Positions 4,088 to 37,951 of a stretch of 64,000 bases of DNA are shown piece after piece (positions within the stretch are counted from its first letter, which is position 1; every line of letters begins with the position of its first letter). This DNA is from Microbacterium endophyticum (GTDB taxonomy: Bacteria > Actinomycetota > Actinomycetes > Actinomycetales > Microbacteriaceae): contig NZ_CP049255.1 of assembly GCF_011047135.1 (NCBI RefSeq), forward strand, positions 434,001 through 498,000, written 5' to 3'. The position numbers were made by a program, and so were the translations under genes. The notes under the pieces were generated by a model that searched no databases, was not told the origin of the DNA, and saw only the letters and a program-made list of their open reading frames with translations.

Positions 4088-5320
4088 TCACAGGCTAAAG
4101 AGAGCCGCTCGCGTCGCGGTCGTTCGTGCCAGCAATGCGCGCTCGTCAGCCTGAGCGTGACTGTCGCGTCCACTCATCGCTCGCTGCCGCGCGGCAGCGA
4201 GCGAAGTGGCATCCGCGATGAATCGCTTCATGAGTGGAGTCTTGTCGCCATGCAGCGTCGCAGCCCACGCCAATGCTTTTCGCCGACCGGCCCCGGTCGC
4301 GAGCATCTCGACCTCTTCGGGCGTGAACCACCCGGCTTGGGCATACTCACCGAGACGAACCCTCGTGAGGCGGGACTCTGCGCGACGGAGAGCAATGATG
4401 CCAACGATGAAGATGACGAACAGCGGAACCTGCACGAGCGCATAAAGCACGAAGAAGTCAAAGAAGACCGCCGATGCGTTCCACAGCGCGTGAAGAAGAG
4501 TCGCACCCGCTACTCCCCCCACCCACCAGCGGAACGACTCGGCTGGTCGCGCTGCGCGCCGAGCCGCAATTCCCAGGGCAAGCCCTACGACGCTCGTGAA
4601 CATCACATGCGCGAATGGAGAAAGAATCCCCCGCATGAAGAAAGTCACGCCCGTCTGGTCGGCACCGCCCGACATGAACGCGACGGCAAAGTACTGAATG
4701 TTTTCAGTGAAAGCAAAACCCGCTCCCACCAGGGCGCCATACACGACTCCATCTATGGGCCCGTCGAAGCGGCGACGAAAGATGAAGAAGATCAGCAGAA
4801 CCCCGAGACCCTTGGCAATCTCCTCAACGACCGGTGCCTGGATGACCGTGGTCAGGGCGACGCCAAGCGCGGAATCATCGCTGCCGAAGACACGGGTGAT
4901 GACGAAATCGACTCCCAGAGCGATTCCCACGGCTCCCACCGCGCCCCATGCCACTGCGAGCGCCATGATCGCGGGCGGCTCCGGCTCCCAGCGGTCGATG
5001 ATCCGCACGGCCAAAAAAACTACGGCGAGAGGCACGAGCGCGAGCACCATACCGACGAGCGAAGCCGCGCTCCCCAACGCACTCAGAAAGTAGGCAATCA
5101 AGAGCACAAGAACAATCACGAGAGCCCCGACGAGCCAGATCGCAGGTCTCAGCCCGCCTCGTGGTGGTTGCTGCGCTGGAATCGGCGAGAGCGGCACATC
5201 CGCCGCAGGAACGGTCACGACGATGTCCTGCTGCGGTTCTGCGCGCAACTCCGAAAAGGATGGCGGAGTCAAGCTGGGCCTCGGTCGTCGGGGACGCTCG
5301 TCGTCAGACGGGAAAGTCAT
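4088..5320 (-). CDS. PrsW family intramembrane glutamic protease
   Basis: 410 residues. The N-terminal about 70 residues are proline-rich and cytoplasmic; about eight hydrophobic segments follow. The PrsW/CPBP-like catalytic motifs are present: E-E-x-x-K in P-V-V-E-E-I-A-K-G, F-A-F-T-E-N-I-x-Y in the next helix, a P-F-A-H-V-M-F-T-S helix, and L-L-H-A-L-W-N near the end. PrsW of Bacillus cleaves the anti-sigma factor RsiW; the target here is unknown and no anti-sigma gene is adjacent. The start at 5320 (MTFPSDDERPR) is preferred over an upstream in-frame start because a TAGGCT hexamer lies 7 nt before this ATG. The C-terminal 100 residues are soluble and arginine-rich. Confidence 0.88.
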   Translation of the reverse strand: MTFPSDDERPRRPRPSLTPPSFSELRAEPQQDIVVTVPAADVPLSPIPAQQPPRGGLRPAIWLVGALVIVLVLLIAYFLSALGSAASLVGMVLALVPLAVVFLAVRIIDRWEPEPPAIMALAVAWGAVGAVGIALGVDFVITRVFGSDDSALGVALTTVIQAPVVEEIAKGLGVLLIFFIFRRRFDGPIDGVVYGALVGAGFAFTENIQYFAVAFMSGGADQTGVTFFMRGILSPFAHVMFTSVVGLALGIAARRAARPAESFRWWVGGVAGATLLHALWNASAVFFDFFVLYALVQVPLFVIFIVGIIALRRAESRLTRVRLGEYAQAGWFTPEEVEMLATGAGRRKALAWAATLHGDKTPLMKRFIADATSLAAARQRAMSGRDSHAQADERALLARTTATRAALFSL

Positions 5321-34613: not shown

Positions 34614-35765
34614 CTACGCGGTGATGACCTGCGCGGTGCCGGGTGCGGCGTTCGGACCCATCGCGTCGGCGATGCGATTAGCCTCTTCGATCAAAGTCTG
34701 GACGATTTCGGACTCAGGCACGGTTTTGACGACCTCGCCCTTGACGAAGATCTGACCCTTACCGTTACCGGAGGCAACGCCGAGGTCAGCGTCGCGAGCT
34801 TCACCGGGGCCGTTCACAACGCAACCCATGACGGCCACTCGCAGTGGAACTGTCATGTCTTTCAGGCCCTCGGTGACGTTGTCTGCAAGGGAGTAGACGT
34901 CAACCTGGGCGCGACCGCACGAGGGGCACGAGACAATCTCGAGCTTGCGCTCACGCAGGTTGAGCGACTGCAGAATCTGGTGGCCGACTTTAACTTCTTC
35001 GGCGGGAGGCGCAGACAACGACACACGAATCGTGTCGCCGATGCCTTCAGAAAGCAGGATGCCGAAGGCCGTTGCCGACTTGATCGTGCCTTGGAAGGCG
35101 GGGCCAGCTTCGGTGACTCCGAGGTGAAGTGGCCAGTCCCCTCGCTCGGCCAACAGGCGGTAGGCCTTGACCATGATCACCGGGTCGTTGTGCTTGACCG
35201 AGATCTTGAAGTCGTGAAAATCATGCTCTTCAAAGAGCGAGGCTTCCCATACCGCACTCTCTGCAAGCGCCTCGGGGGTGGCTTTGCCGTACTTTTCCAG
35301 TAGTCGGCGATCGAGGGAACCGGCGTTGACACCGATACGAAGTGACACACCGGCGGCTTTCGCGGCTGCCGCGATTGATCCGACCTGGTCGTCGAATTTG
35401 CGAATGTTGCCGGGGTTGACGCGCACAGCGGCGCAGCCCGCATCGATCGCCTGGTACACGTACTTCGGTTGGAAGTGAATGTCGGCGATGACGGGGATCT
35501 GGCTCTTCTTCGCGATGATGTGCAGAACGTCTGCATCTTCTTGTGTCGGCACGGCGACGCGCACGATTTCGCACCCAGATGCTGTGAGCTCGGCGATCTG
35601 CTGCAGAGTCGCGTTGATGTTTGTTGTCGGTGTTGTCGTCATCGACTGCACGCTGACGGGAGCGTCCCCTCCCACGAGCACTTTGCCGACCTTGATCTGG
35701 CGACTCTTACGACGCGGGGCTAGTGTTTCGGGGACTTTGGGCATCCCGATATTGACTGCTGGCAC
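34614..35765 (-). CDS. ispG: 4-hydroxy-3-methylbut-2-enyl-diphosphate synthase
   Basis: 383 residues. Penultimate enzyme of the MEP isoprenoid pathway, reducing the cyclodiphosphate with a [4Fe-4S] cluster. The cluster cysteines are visible in S-C-P-S-C-G-R near 282 and [10 protein letters not shown] near 315; the TIM-barrel part has V-Q-S-M-T-T-T-P-T near 40 and A-D-I-H-F near 95. Start is GTG at 35765 with a TAGGCT hexamer 6 nt upstream, so the transcript is probably leaderless. It works in the same pathway as dxr at 42474-43559; the usual dxr-rseP-ispG run is interrupted here. Confidence 0.96.
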
Positions 35766-35771
35766 GTCATT

Positions 35772-35777
35772 AGCCTA
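35772..35777 (-). promoter_or_regulatory. -10 hexamer TAGGCT for ispG
   Basis: On the minus strand TAGGCT ends 6 nt before the GTG at 35765; leaderless arrangement. Confidence 0.5.
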
Positions 35778-35875
35778 CGCCGGTCAGCGCTCTTGAGGCC
35801 CTGATACGAGCAGCCAGACGTGAAAACAAACGCCAACCGCACGAAGCGCGGCGAAACGGCGGTGAGTGTATGTGG

Positions 35876-35881
35876 TAATTT
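35876..35881 (+). promoter_or_regulatory. -10 hexamer TAATTT upstream of the trp leader peptide
   Basis: TAATTT ends 7 nt before the leader ATG at 35889, with no ribosome site between, so the leader mRNA would start at or next to its first codon. No good -35 element is visible. Confidence 0.45.
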
Positions 35882-35888
35882 TCACGGC

Positions 35889-35930
35889 ATGCACGCGAAC
35901 CAATCCTGGTGGACCGCCCTCGGGCGGTGA
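35889..35930 (+). CDS. trpL: Tryptophan leader peptide (13 residues)
   Basis: The reading frame MHANQSWWTALGR followed by TGA has adjacent Trp codons at 35907-35912. It resembles the W-W-T-A core of known actinobacterial trp leaders. It sits directly before a four-segment attenuator and 89 bp before the trpE-trpG fusion. The peptide itself is presumably a sensor only: a ribosome starved of Trp-tRNA stalls on the TGG codons. No Shine-Dalgarno is present, and a -10 hexamer 7 nt upstream suggests leaderless translation. Confidence 0.85.
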   Translation: MHANQSWWTALGR

Positions 35931-35975
35931 GTTCGCGTTTCCACGAATCCAGGCCGCCGAAACAGGCGGCCTTTT
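35913..35975 (+). promoter_or_regulatory. Ribosome-mediated transcription attenuator for trpE
   Basis: Segment 1 ACCGCC (35913-35918) pairs with segment 2 GGCGGT (35923-35928) across CTCG. Segment 2 can instead pair with segment 3 GCCGCC (35953-35958). Segment 3, as AGGCCGCC (35951-35958), pairs with segment 4 GGCGGCCT (35965-35972), which is followed by TTTC. Stalling on the Trp codons covers segment 1, frees 2 for 3, and prevents terminator 3:4. When tryptophan is plentiful, 1:2 and 3:4 form and transcription stops before trpE. Confidence 0.85.
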
Positions 35976-36019
35976 CTCGTGAACGGCGGCCAAGGGCGGA
36001 CGAGAAGTAAGGACCGATC

Positions 36020-37951
36020 ATGACCGACGATGTCTCTTCAGCAACGGGCATTGCACTGCTCGAACGTCTGCGAGCTGCGGCATCCGATCAGCCCCTTGTG
36101 CTGCTCGCGCGCGAGGGCGGCGATGTCGAGGTACTCACCGGTGCTGTCGTCGATGTCGATGCGCTCGCTGACATCCCCCTGCTCGATGCCTCCGGCACCC
36201 CGCAGGAAGTGCTTGCCCTCGTGCCTTACCGGCAGGTGCGCGAGCGCGGTTTCGAATGTCACGATGACGGCGCACCACTGCGCTGTGTCGTCGTTGGCGA
36301 GCGCGCGCTGATTACTCGGGAGGATGCACTCGGTGCACTTCCGACACGAGAGATTGCGCTGACCGGAGCCGGCTTCGACATTCCTGATGCCGAATACGCC
36401 GACATCGTGCGGCGCGTGATTGCTGACGAGATTGGTCGCGGCGAAGGTGCCAACTTCGTGATTCGTCGCGACTTCACTGCGCGCATTGATTCTTCCGAGC
36501 TTGAAGCGGCGCTCACCTGGTTCCGTGCGCTTCTGAGTCAAGAACGCGGCGCCTACTGGACCTTCCTGATTGCCACGGACGGCCACATCGCCGTCGGAGC
36601 AAGCCCTGAAGCCCACGTCAGCGCCCGCGACGGCGTTGTGACGATGAACCCGATCTCTGGCACATTCCGTCATCCGGTTGGCGGCGCGACGGCCGAAACG
36701 CTCACCGAATTTCTTGAGTCGACCAAAGAGACTGAAGAGCTCTTCATGGTGGTTGATGAAGAGCTAAAGATGATGAGCGCCGTGTGCTCGGATGGTGGCC
36801 GGATTACGGGCCCCCGGCTCAAGGAGATGTCGAGACTCACACACACCGAGTATGTCCTTGAGGGGCACAGCACACTGGATCCGCGCGCCATCTTGCGCGA
36901 GACGATGTTTGCGCCAACCGTCACGGGTTCTCCCATGCAGAACGCGTGCACCGTCATTACACGCCACGAACGCGGTCCCCGCGGCTACTACTCCGGAGTT
37001 GCGGCACTCTTCACTCCGCGCGAGCACGTCGCCGACGGCGAATCGACGCACGATCTCGATGCACCCATTCTTATCCGCACCGCGTATCTGGTTGACGGCA
37101 CGCTGCGAGTTCCGGTCGGGGCAACCCTCGTGCGCCACTCGGACCCGATGGGAGAAGTCAGCGAGACTCACGGTAAAGCGGCGGGAGTGCTCGGCGCGAT
37201 CGGTGCAATTGCCCGCGACGAACCTGCAGTCGATCCCGATGCTCCCGCTCTCGATCGTCCGCCGCTTGCCGAAGACCCGGCGATCGCGCAATTGCTTGCC
37301 TCGCGAAACGCGCGACTGGCCGCTTTCTGGTTGGAGCCGCAGGGATCTGGTGTCGAGGGGCCGTTCATCGGGCTGAGCGCCGTCGTCGTGGATGCCGAAG
37401 ATCGCTTCACGACAATGCTCACGCACCAGTTGCGACACCTCGGCCTCGACGCCCGCATTGTGCCGTGGAATGAGGTCACCGAAGAGCAACTCGATGCGGC
37501 CGATATCGTCGTGGCGGGACCTGGCCCGGGTGACCCGCGCGATGCGAACTCTGCGCGAATGGAGCGCATGAGAGAAATCGTCGCTCGTCGCGTCGAACAG
37601 CGTCGGCCGCTTCTTGCGGTGTGCCTGTCGCACCAGATACTCGCGCATCTGCTCGGCATCGAACTCGCACCGCTGGCGCACCCACACCAGGGCTTGCAAC
37701 TCGAGGTCGACGTGTTTGGTCAGAAGGCATCCATCGGGTTTTACAACACGTTCACCGCGCACGTCGAGCCAGGTACGACGTCGACTTCGCGCGCATCCGT
37801 GTCAGCCGATACCCGGTCGGGAGATGTCTATGCGCTGCGTGGTCCCGGTTTCGCTTCGGTGCAGGGCCATCTCGAGTCGATACTTTCCCGAGATGGCATG
37901 CGCACTCTGCAGCAATTGATCGCCGACGCATTACACCCAGCGGAAGCGTAG
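36020..37951 (+). CDS. trpE: Anthranilate synthase, TrpE-TrpG fusion (PhzE-like organisation)
   Basis: 643 residues. The chorismate-utilising domain (about 20-425) contains G-A-Y-W-T-F-L-I near 180, S-P-E-A-H-V near 197, M-N-P-I-S-G-T-F-R-H near 212 and the T-V-T-G-S-P-M-Q-N region near 308. A class I glutamine amidotransferase domain (about 445-640) contains V-A-G-P-G-P-G-D-P near 495, the nucleophile cysteine in A-V-C-L-S-H-Q near 535, F-Y-N-T-F, and H-x-E in G-H-L-E-S. The fused layout is shared by phenazine PhzE and actinobacterial TrpE(G). The Trp-codon attenuator upstream favours anthranilate and tryptophan synthesis. AAGGA precedes the ATG. Confidence 0.9.
   Translation: MTDDVSSATGIALLERLRAAASDQPLVLLAREGGDVEVLTGAVVDVDALADIPLLDASGTPQEVLALVPYRQVRERGFECHDDGAPLRCVVVGERALITREDALGALPTREIALTGAGFDIPDAEYADIVRRVIADEIGRGEGANFVIRRDFTARIDSSELEAALTWFRALLSQERGAYWTFLIATDGHIAVGASPEAHVSARDGVVTMNPISGTFRHPVGGATAETLTEFLESTKETEELFMVVDEELKMMSAVCSDGGRITGPRLKEMSRLTHTEYVLEGHSTLDPRAILRETMFAPTVTGSPMQNACTVITRHERGPRGYYSGVAALFTPREHVADGESTHDLDAPILIRTAYLVDGTLRVPVGATLVRHSDPMGEVSETHGKAAGVLGAIGAIARDEPAVDPDAPALDRPPLAEDPAIAQLLASRNARLAAFWLEPQGSGVEGPFIGLSAVVVDAEDRFTTMLTHQLRHLGLDARIVPWNEVTEEQLDAADIVVAGPGPGDPRDANSARMERMREIVARRVEQRRPLLAVCLSHQILAHLLGIELAPLAHPHQGLQLEVDVFGQKASIGFYNTFTAHVEPGTTSTSRASVSADTRSGDVYALRGPGFASVQGHLESILSRDGMRTLQQLIADALHPAEA

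Follow-up and report, generated by a model that had tools for sequence, protein, structure and literature searches.

The 64,000-nucleotide (nt) window analysed here, positions 434,001 to 498,000 of contig NZ_CP049255.1 from Microbacterium endophyticum, very probably contains a ribosome-mediated transcription attenuator, trpL, whose leader peptide is probably translated from a leaderless message and which would control a PhzE-type TrpEG, the first enzyme of the tryptophan (Trp) branch. At the level of sequence, this reading is carried by the anatomy of the leader, its conservation among relatives, covariation in the terminator, a fixed spacing between the -10 box and the start codon, a nearly constant distance from the Trp codons to the second RNA segment, and the standing of the downstream gene product as the sole candidate enzyme for its step. 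All positions below are those of the window.

The leader site is the gap between two divergent genes, a reverse-strand frame with its 5' end at 35765, which resembles IspG by eye, and the fused gene that starts at 36020 (Table 1). A 13-codon open reading frame (ORF) with adjacent Trp codons (WW) at 35907-35912 and three competing pairings had been described in the original prediction, and each was confirmed base for base. Pairing 1:2 (35913-18:35923-28, ACCGCC/GGCGGT) is exact, pairing 2:3 (35923-28:35953-58) has six pairs of which one is U.G, and pairing 3:4 (35951-58:35965-72) has eight exact pairs; all three mutually exclusive pairings are thus present, with 3:4 as the terminator. Direct reading places the trpL ATG at 35889-35891 and its TGA at 35928-35930, and likewise bears out that TAATTT ends 7 nt before the ATG (spacer 35882-35888) with no ribosome site ahead of it. 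The hairpin anatomy as first listed was real but incomplete: a perfect helix of 8 base pairs (bp), 35893-35900:35931-35938, had been missed, and it gives the 1:2 hairpin a long basal stem beside the start codon. The 92-nt RNA from 35889 to 35980 folds at -45.8 kcal/mol, relative to a shuffle mean of -31.1 (z -4.5; 0/200 shuffles as good). Its default fold consists of the basal helix and 1:2 hairpin followed by the terminator, which is the sole terminator found in 35760-36040 (shuffles gave 0.3 +/- 0.6). G+C-rich DNA forms hairpins easily, and a WW micro-ORF could lie beside GC-rich hairpins in a GC-rich intergenic region by chance; this explanation, to which we assign negligible likelihood, is refuted by the folding z-score together with the conservation of WW leaders, -10 spacing, Trp-to-segment-2 distance and terminator covariation described below.

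Table 1. Features of the trpL leader and the downstream gene, in window coordinates.
Feature	Coordinates	Strand	Remarks
-10 box TAATTT	35876..35881	+	preceded by TGG, a TGn extended -10; transcription start placed at about 35889
trpL leader peptide ORF, MHANQSWWTALGR*	35889..35930	+	13 codons; probably leaderless, with the ATG at +1 and no Shine-Dalgarno
Basal "lock" helix, 5' arm ACGCGAAC	35893..35900	+	begins 4 nt after the first base of the start codon; partner 35931-35938
Tandem Trp codons TGG TGG, sensor	35907..35912	+	six bases invariant across the 52 sequences of alignment A1
Segment 1, ACCGCC	35913..35918	+	would be covered by a ribosome stalled at the Trp codons
Segment 2, GGCGGU	35923..35928	+	partner of 1 or 3; 13 nt after the first base of the last Trp codon
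Basal "lock" helix, 3' arm GTTCGCGT	35931..35938	+	partner of 35893-35900
Segment 3, AGGCCGCC	35951..35958	+	35953-35958 pairs with 2 (antiterminator); entire arm pairs with 4 (terminator)
Segment 4, GGCGGCCT, terminator 3' arm	35965..35972	+	
Short U-run UUU, then CUCGU	35973..35975	+	adjoins the terminator stem
AAGGA, probable ribosome binding site of the structural gene	36009..36013	+	6 nt before the ATG; by eye
Fused PhzE-type anthranilate synthase TrpEG, 643 residues	36020..37951	+	chorismate-binding domain 124-386; class-I amidotransferase (GATase) domain 455-633

Relatives of the fused gene were sampled in two sets. Set 1 comprises the window and 80 relatives (the best 80 of 582 confirmed in one scan of public genomes), or 81 rows, mostly from Microbacterium and also from Agromyces, Jiangella, Blastococcus, Kutzneria, Embleya, Yinghuangia, Rhodococcus, Scrofimicrobium and a few draft genomes. 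Two of these rows could not be judged for want of upstream sequence (103 nt in L037, 1 nt in L052), which leaves 79. A WW leader ORF is present in 78 of the 79, window included, with L082 as the sole exception. Set 2 is a class-wide draw of 246 genomes that gave 106 matches in 96 genomes; among the 104 copies examined, a WW leader with TAnnnT ending 6-8 nt from the start codon (64 ATG, 6 GTG) is found in 70 and a WW ORF lacking the box in one. All 78 set-1 leaders (69 ATG, 9 GTG) likewise show TAnnnT ending 6-8 nt before the start. For any ATG or GTG in the set-1 loci, the background at 5-8 nt is about 1% (320/31,955); the choice of set-1 starts favoured candidates with a -10, but there was one such candidate per locus. 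The window and one further leader (L010 = L111) occur in both sets, so that 147 distinct WW leaders remain, 146 of them with the box at this distance. Comparison with relatives therefore supports both the leaderless leader that had been proposed for the window (78/78; 70/71) and the attenuator itself: close relatives were named beforehand as the place where the WW codons and alternative pairings might prove to be lost, and the reading survived the check. Leader ORFs of the Microbacterium relatives usually have 11 codons and stop at the start of segment 2; with two codons more, that of the window reaches the end of the segment, so a terminating ribosome would sit further downstream.

The distance between sensor and switch is equally regular. 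The interval between the last Trp codon, counted from its first base, and the GGCGG-type segment 2 is 14 nt in 121/146 leaders and 13-15 nt in 136/146, where n is both sets minus two recurrences and the GGCGG-type pattern was picked with segment 2 already known. The value is 13 in the window, 11 or 12 in four leaders, and at least 39 or not found in six. This ruler holds despite varying leader lengths and numbers of Trp codons, and its end is where the edge of a ribosome with the last Trp codon in the A site would lie. For the terminator, an alignment of 52 sequences has 98.6% of cells paired, with double-side changes at 3/8 pairs (11 cells) and a covariation of 0.104, compared with 0.048 +/- 0.008 in shuffles (0/500 as high) and at most 0.047 in slid versions. 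At 35953:35970 the window differs from the 51 other aligned sequences by a double change from A-U to G-C, and the compensatory changes extend beyond the part shared with the antiterminator. Pairing 2:3 reaches at least 5 bp in 76/78 leaders of set 1 and 61/66 of set 2 (2/68 not located), and pairing 3:4 at least 6 bp in 74/78 and 63/66, respectively. Conserved WW codons, the fixed distance to segment 2 and the compensatory changes in the terminator together strongly support the claim of classical ribosome-mediated Trp attenuation.

We propose the following mechanism. RNA polymerase would start at, or within one or two bases of, the A of the leader ATG, in which case a ribosome, presumably an intact 70S, would load on the 5' end of a leaderless message. 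When Trp-tRNA is ample, the ribosome should reach the TGA at 35928, cover segment 2 and then depart, after which the 1:2 hairpin and basal helix would close and 3:4 would terminate transcription near 35975. When Trp-tRNA is short, the ribosome would wait at 35907-35912 and cover segment 1 and the basal 5' arm; segment 2, left exposed, could then pair with 3 while 4 is still unmade, and transcription would continue into trpEG. If no ribosome has loaded, the 1:2 hairpin and basal helix would form at once and hide the start-codon region, which would make termination the default. The geometry is consistent with this scheme: given an assumed 31-nt ribosome footprint, a ribosome at Trp masks segment 1 but not 2, and one at the stop masks 2. 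Masked folding of the RNA up to 35964 with the same footprint gave a modelled P(2:3) of 0.86 and 0.98 with the first and second Trp codon in the A site, and of 0.00 for the ribosome-free RNA, for a ribosome on the start codon and for one that has the stop codon in its A site.

The helix next to the start codon is the least documented part of the attenuator; alignment-free tests point to compensatory variation in it, and the alignment-based count gives no such signal. Across the 78 set-1 leaders, the longest perfect complement between the first codons and the stretch that separates segments 2 and 3 averages 5.94 bp, and 3.92 if the second stretch is shuffled; in 39/78 no more than 5 of 100 shuffles equal it. 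When partners are exchanged among these leaders, the summed complement falls from 463 to 394 +/- 9 (0/2000), and the same exchange gave observed means of 6.28 bp vs 4.78 for the 18 non-Microbacterium leaders (0/5000), 6.53 vs 4.67 for 15 hand-picked representatives (0/5000) and 6.27 vs 5.33 for 66 leaders of set 2 (0/2000). These permutations are alignment-free and ignore phylogeny except in the runs with the 15 representatives and the 18 non-Microbacterium leaders. A basal helix of at least 5 bp occurs in 129/142 leaders, a count without a null of its own, and its 5' arm starts at nt 1-11 (at nt 1-3 in 40/129). The arms differ by lineage: CGCGAAC:GTTCGCG in many Microbacterium, GTACGCGA:TCGCGTAC in Jiangella and similar set-2 leaders, TTCGCG:CGCGAA in Streptomyces-like leaders and CGTCGA:TCGACG in Agromyces. 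Some leaders lack the helix, such as those of Microbacterium L005, L014 and L056 (3 bp) and Blastococcus L070 (3 bp). In the alignment made with MAFFT, the 1:2 hairpin plus basal helix beats slid versions in cells paired (75% vs at most 49%). Tentatively, and with a little less than even confidence, we propose a "start-codon lock" common to the leaderless trp leaders of Actinomycetes, in which the first codons would pair just downstream of segment 2, closing behind the departing ribosome or in its absence and shutting the sole ribosome entry, so that each transcript would allow one sensing event with termination as the default. The literature passages covered contain no mention of a start-codon helix in leaderless trp leaders; the original Streptomyces venezuelae attenuator paper, Canestrari 2020 and Ashenafi 2008 lie outside that coverage, and we do not claim novelty.

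The gene under this proposed control had been called a trpE-trpG fusion, and it does encode a fused candidate anthranilate synthase, though one of PhzE type. Its nearest solved relative is 3r74 (529 bits, E 1.3e-157, residues 32-638), annotated as Anthranilate/para-aminobenzoate synthases component I, which we take to be PhzE; among chains named anthranilate synthase component I (TrpE), the highest score is 54 bits. No NCBIfam model reaches its cut-off among the matches listed (25 of 41), and the fused-TrpE model TIGR01815, presumably that of the Sinorhizobium meliloti-type fused TrpE, gives 131 bits for a cut-off of 739. Beyond TrpEG, the genome (2.92 Mb, one contig, 99.95% complete) encodes just two chorismate-binding proteins, one matching best with PabB (312 bits, just below the 328.4 cut-off) and the other with isochorismate synthase (249 bits, over the cut-off). 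By these matches, TrpEG is the only candidate anthranilate synthase of the genome. Its window neighbours are ispG, proS and an RseP-like protease (frames read by eye), not a phz-type secondary-metabolite cluster. In a draw of 80 genomes of the same family, a classical TrpE match above 500 bits was found in 72 and a PhzE-type gene in 11, the latter in 5/8 genomes without classical TrpE at that threshold vs 6/72 with it. The pattern fits replacement of classical TrpE by the PhzE-type gene in some lineages, and in this genome such a replacement appears to have taken place.

Several results weigh against the attenuator with its leaderless leader. A promoter scan found no sigma-70 -35/-10 pair, only the -10 being recognisable, and the 5' end is itself inferred from the sequence. 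These points would suit the same attenuator with transcription starting upstream and a 5' untranslated region without Shine-Dalgarno leading to the ATG. We consider such an arrangement quite improbable: the -10 spacing is kept in both sets while the sequence further upstream of the box varies among leaders (by eye), a Shine-Dalgarno-like motif (five 5-base motifs, 4-20 nt upstream) was found in 0/78 set-1 leaders, and trpL1 of Streptomyces lividans is reported to be leaderless from RNA-seq (PMC8079986). The U-run described in the original prediction is present at 35973-35975 but weak and short, with three U after the stem. Termination could instead be Rho-dependent, as has been proposed for terminator-less actinobacterial cys leaders (Seliverstov 2005, PMC1262725), or control could act on translation or stability with the hairpins as accessories. 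The compensatory changes that maintain the terminator stem past the antiterminator-shared part make this improbable, as does an automatic pick that recovered a stem with a T-rich tail in 68/78 set-1 leaders, several of the stems being wrong, and nothing in 10/78; long loops or short T-runs outside its limits account for the misses and errors.

Other adverse results concern the intrinsic terminator-antiterminator switch that we prefer. Once segment 4 is included, the fold at equilibrium is dominated by 3:4 whatever the ribosome state (P 0.98-0.99); the switch must therefore be kinetic and decided before segment 4 is transcribed. The antiterminator is 96.4% paired and nearly invariant, all 500/500 shuffles reach its observed pairing, and the 52-sequence alignment holds no double change and hence no covariation support for it; such invariance is expected of a segment with two partners. 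The counts of 2:3 and 3:4 given above located the segments by GGCG/CCGCC-type motifs, which builds in much of the pairing. For the 1:2 hairpin plus basal helix, the MAFFT alignment has 75.0% pairing vs 74.5% when shuffled (97/500 as high), and its covariation is reached by 209/500 shuffles. Finally, 33/104 class-wide copies have no WW leader, meaning no WW ORF of at most 40 codons in about 560 nt upstream, a definition that separated or single Trp codons would escape; the device is therefore not universal.

These 33 copies comprise nine second copies, 12 from genus f29/g44, seven from family f21 and five scattered. In genomes with two examined copies (set 2, e.g. G195, G035, G222), exactly one copy has a Trp leader (9/9), as expected if the second copy serves another pathway. 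The predicted attenuator is thus common but not universal with the PhzE-type gene. All 12 examined copies of genus f29/g44 (e.g. L182, L188) and all seven of family f21 (e.g. L147, L153) have the PhzE-type gene without a WW leader. In set 1, the gene of L082, the exception that has no leader, comes after a dhbA-type dehydrogenase (355 bits, over cut-off) and a hydrolase with weak matches to the isochorismatase kind (best 47 bits), and its setting is probably that of secondary metabolism.

Elsewhere in the genome, the trp genes are scattered, with trpEG at 470 kb, trpD at 202 kb, and a TIGR02234-like gene, trpC, trpB and trpA at about 90-94 kb, where trpB lies between trpC and trpA by eye. This scatter, with a Trp leader found before trpEG alone, recalls S. 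meliloti (PMC7298713) and raises the question of whether leader RNA or peptide also acts in trans on the unlinked trpD and trpCBA, like rnTrpL and peTrpL of that species. Predicted duplexes between the leader RNA and the 5' regions of five genes were unconvincing: among 300 random windows, energies as low or lower were reached by 5 for trpS, 18 for trpC, 193 for trpD, 215 for the membrane protein and 273 for trpB, counts that are uncorrected for five tests and do not include accessibility. We therefore hold a role in trans unlikely. A covariance model built from 52 sequences including the window (whose own 79.7 bits are by construction) gave eight matches at E<=1 in the genome, the window's own and seven others; no second convincing site appeared in the 2.9 Mb, the next best having 19.4 bits and E 0.05. 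An Rfam scan of the whole window yielded 0 matches at the gathering threshold, to T-box and riboswitch families or any other. No leaderless W-bearing short ORF was found in the stretches scanned before the trpC cluster, trpD or trpS, the W-bearing matches there being reading frames of at least 153 codons.

Relative to known systems, the window shares its four-segment logic with the trp attenuator of Escherichia coli, in which the leader has a Shine-Dalgarno and TrpR repression acts in addition. One of the closest parallels is S. lividans TK24 trpL1, MFAHSTRNWWWTAHPAAH*, before trpE (SLIV_27120), with two hairpins and a U-rich stretch, in a species with 17% leaderless primary transcripts and a mean distance of 6.3 nt between the -10 and the transcription start (PMC8079986). 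The reported trpL1 resembles the window in its Trp-rich leader ORF, its hairpins with a U-rich stretch and its monocistronic anthranilate synthase gene. It differs in having WWW, a longer peptide and an ORF that runs past segment 2, whereas the window has WW and an ORF that stops at the end of segment 2. Set 2 contains near-identical S. lividans-type leaders, MFAHSTQNWWWTAHPAAH, in which -10 spacing and pairings are as in the window. For S. venezuelae, a trp attenuator is cited in PMC1262725 and PMC4833913, and its fused, PhzE-like SvTrpEG is reported to be an anthranilate synthase, not an ADIC synthase (Ashenafi 2008 as quoted in PMC3111181); as described there, it shares with the window both the Trp attenuator before the gene and the type of enzyme. 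In S. meliloti, trpL encodes a 14-amino-acid leader, the rnTrpL transcript begins with the trpL ATG before trpE(G), and of three trp operons only trpE(G) is attenuated (PMC7298713). The leader at the transcript start and the attenuator before trpE(G) are as in the window, but S. meliloti is an Alphaproteobacterium, and between the two the roles in trans are shown for that species only. The leaderless poly-Cys short ORFs of mycobacteria (Canestrari 2020, cited in PMC9031893) are reported there as attenuators that act on translation of downstream genes; they too are leaderless short ORFs that sense an amino acid in Actinomycetes, unlike the window in responding to cysteine and in acting on translation. 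A 2005 study predicted trp attenuators in the actinobacteria Corynebacterium and Streptomyces (PMC1262725), and for the trp operon of C. glutamicum a start in front of trpL is presumed (PMC11995493). Leaderless trp attenuation is therefore already known as a kind from S. lividans and S. meliloti, with the mycobacterial poly-Cys ORFs alongside, and the leaderless sensor peptide, which the original prediction put forward as a mechanistically interesting variant, is not a new one, since such peptides are already in print. A text search of the literature returned no paper joining Microbacterium, attenuator, tryptophan and leader peptide.

The value of this switch, which is of textbook type, is comparative. 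The -10 placement in 146/147 leaders implies that, ahead of PhzE-type TrpEG, this attenuator usually has a leaderless leader; the 14-nt ruler appears to read out the leading edge of the ribosome. The basal helix offers a testable prediction, namely sensing by one ribosome per transcript. For annotation, the presence or absence of the attenuator could help to assign a PhzE-like copy to tryptophan or to another pathway.

Other features were noted around these loci. Between the terminator and trpEG of the window (35985-35999), and of some relatives, there are GGCGG or CCGCC elements that repeat the terminator arms or are complementary to them; a loose pattern, which ran into the gene in many rows, found such an element 3' of the terminator in 45/76. 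At L138 near 1495 and L098 near 4409-4415 (reverse strand), a TAnnnT box also lies 6 nt before the GTG start of trpS and 8 nt before an ATG of trpD that is either its start or two codons further on, and by this spacing the trpS and trpD messages may both be leaderless.

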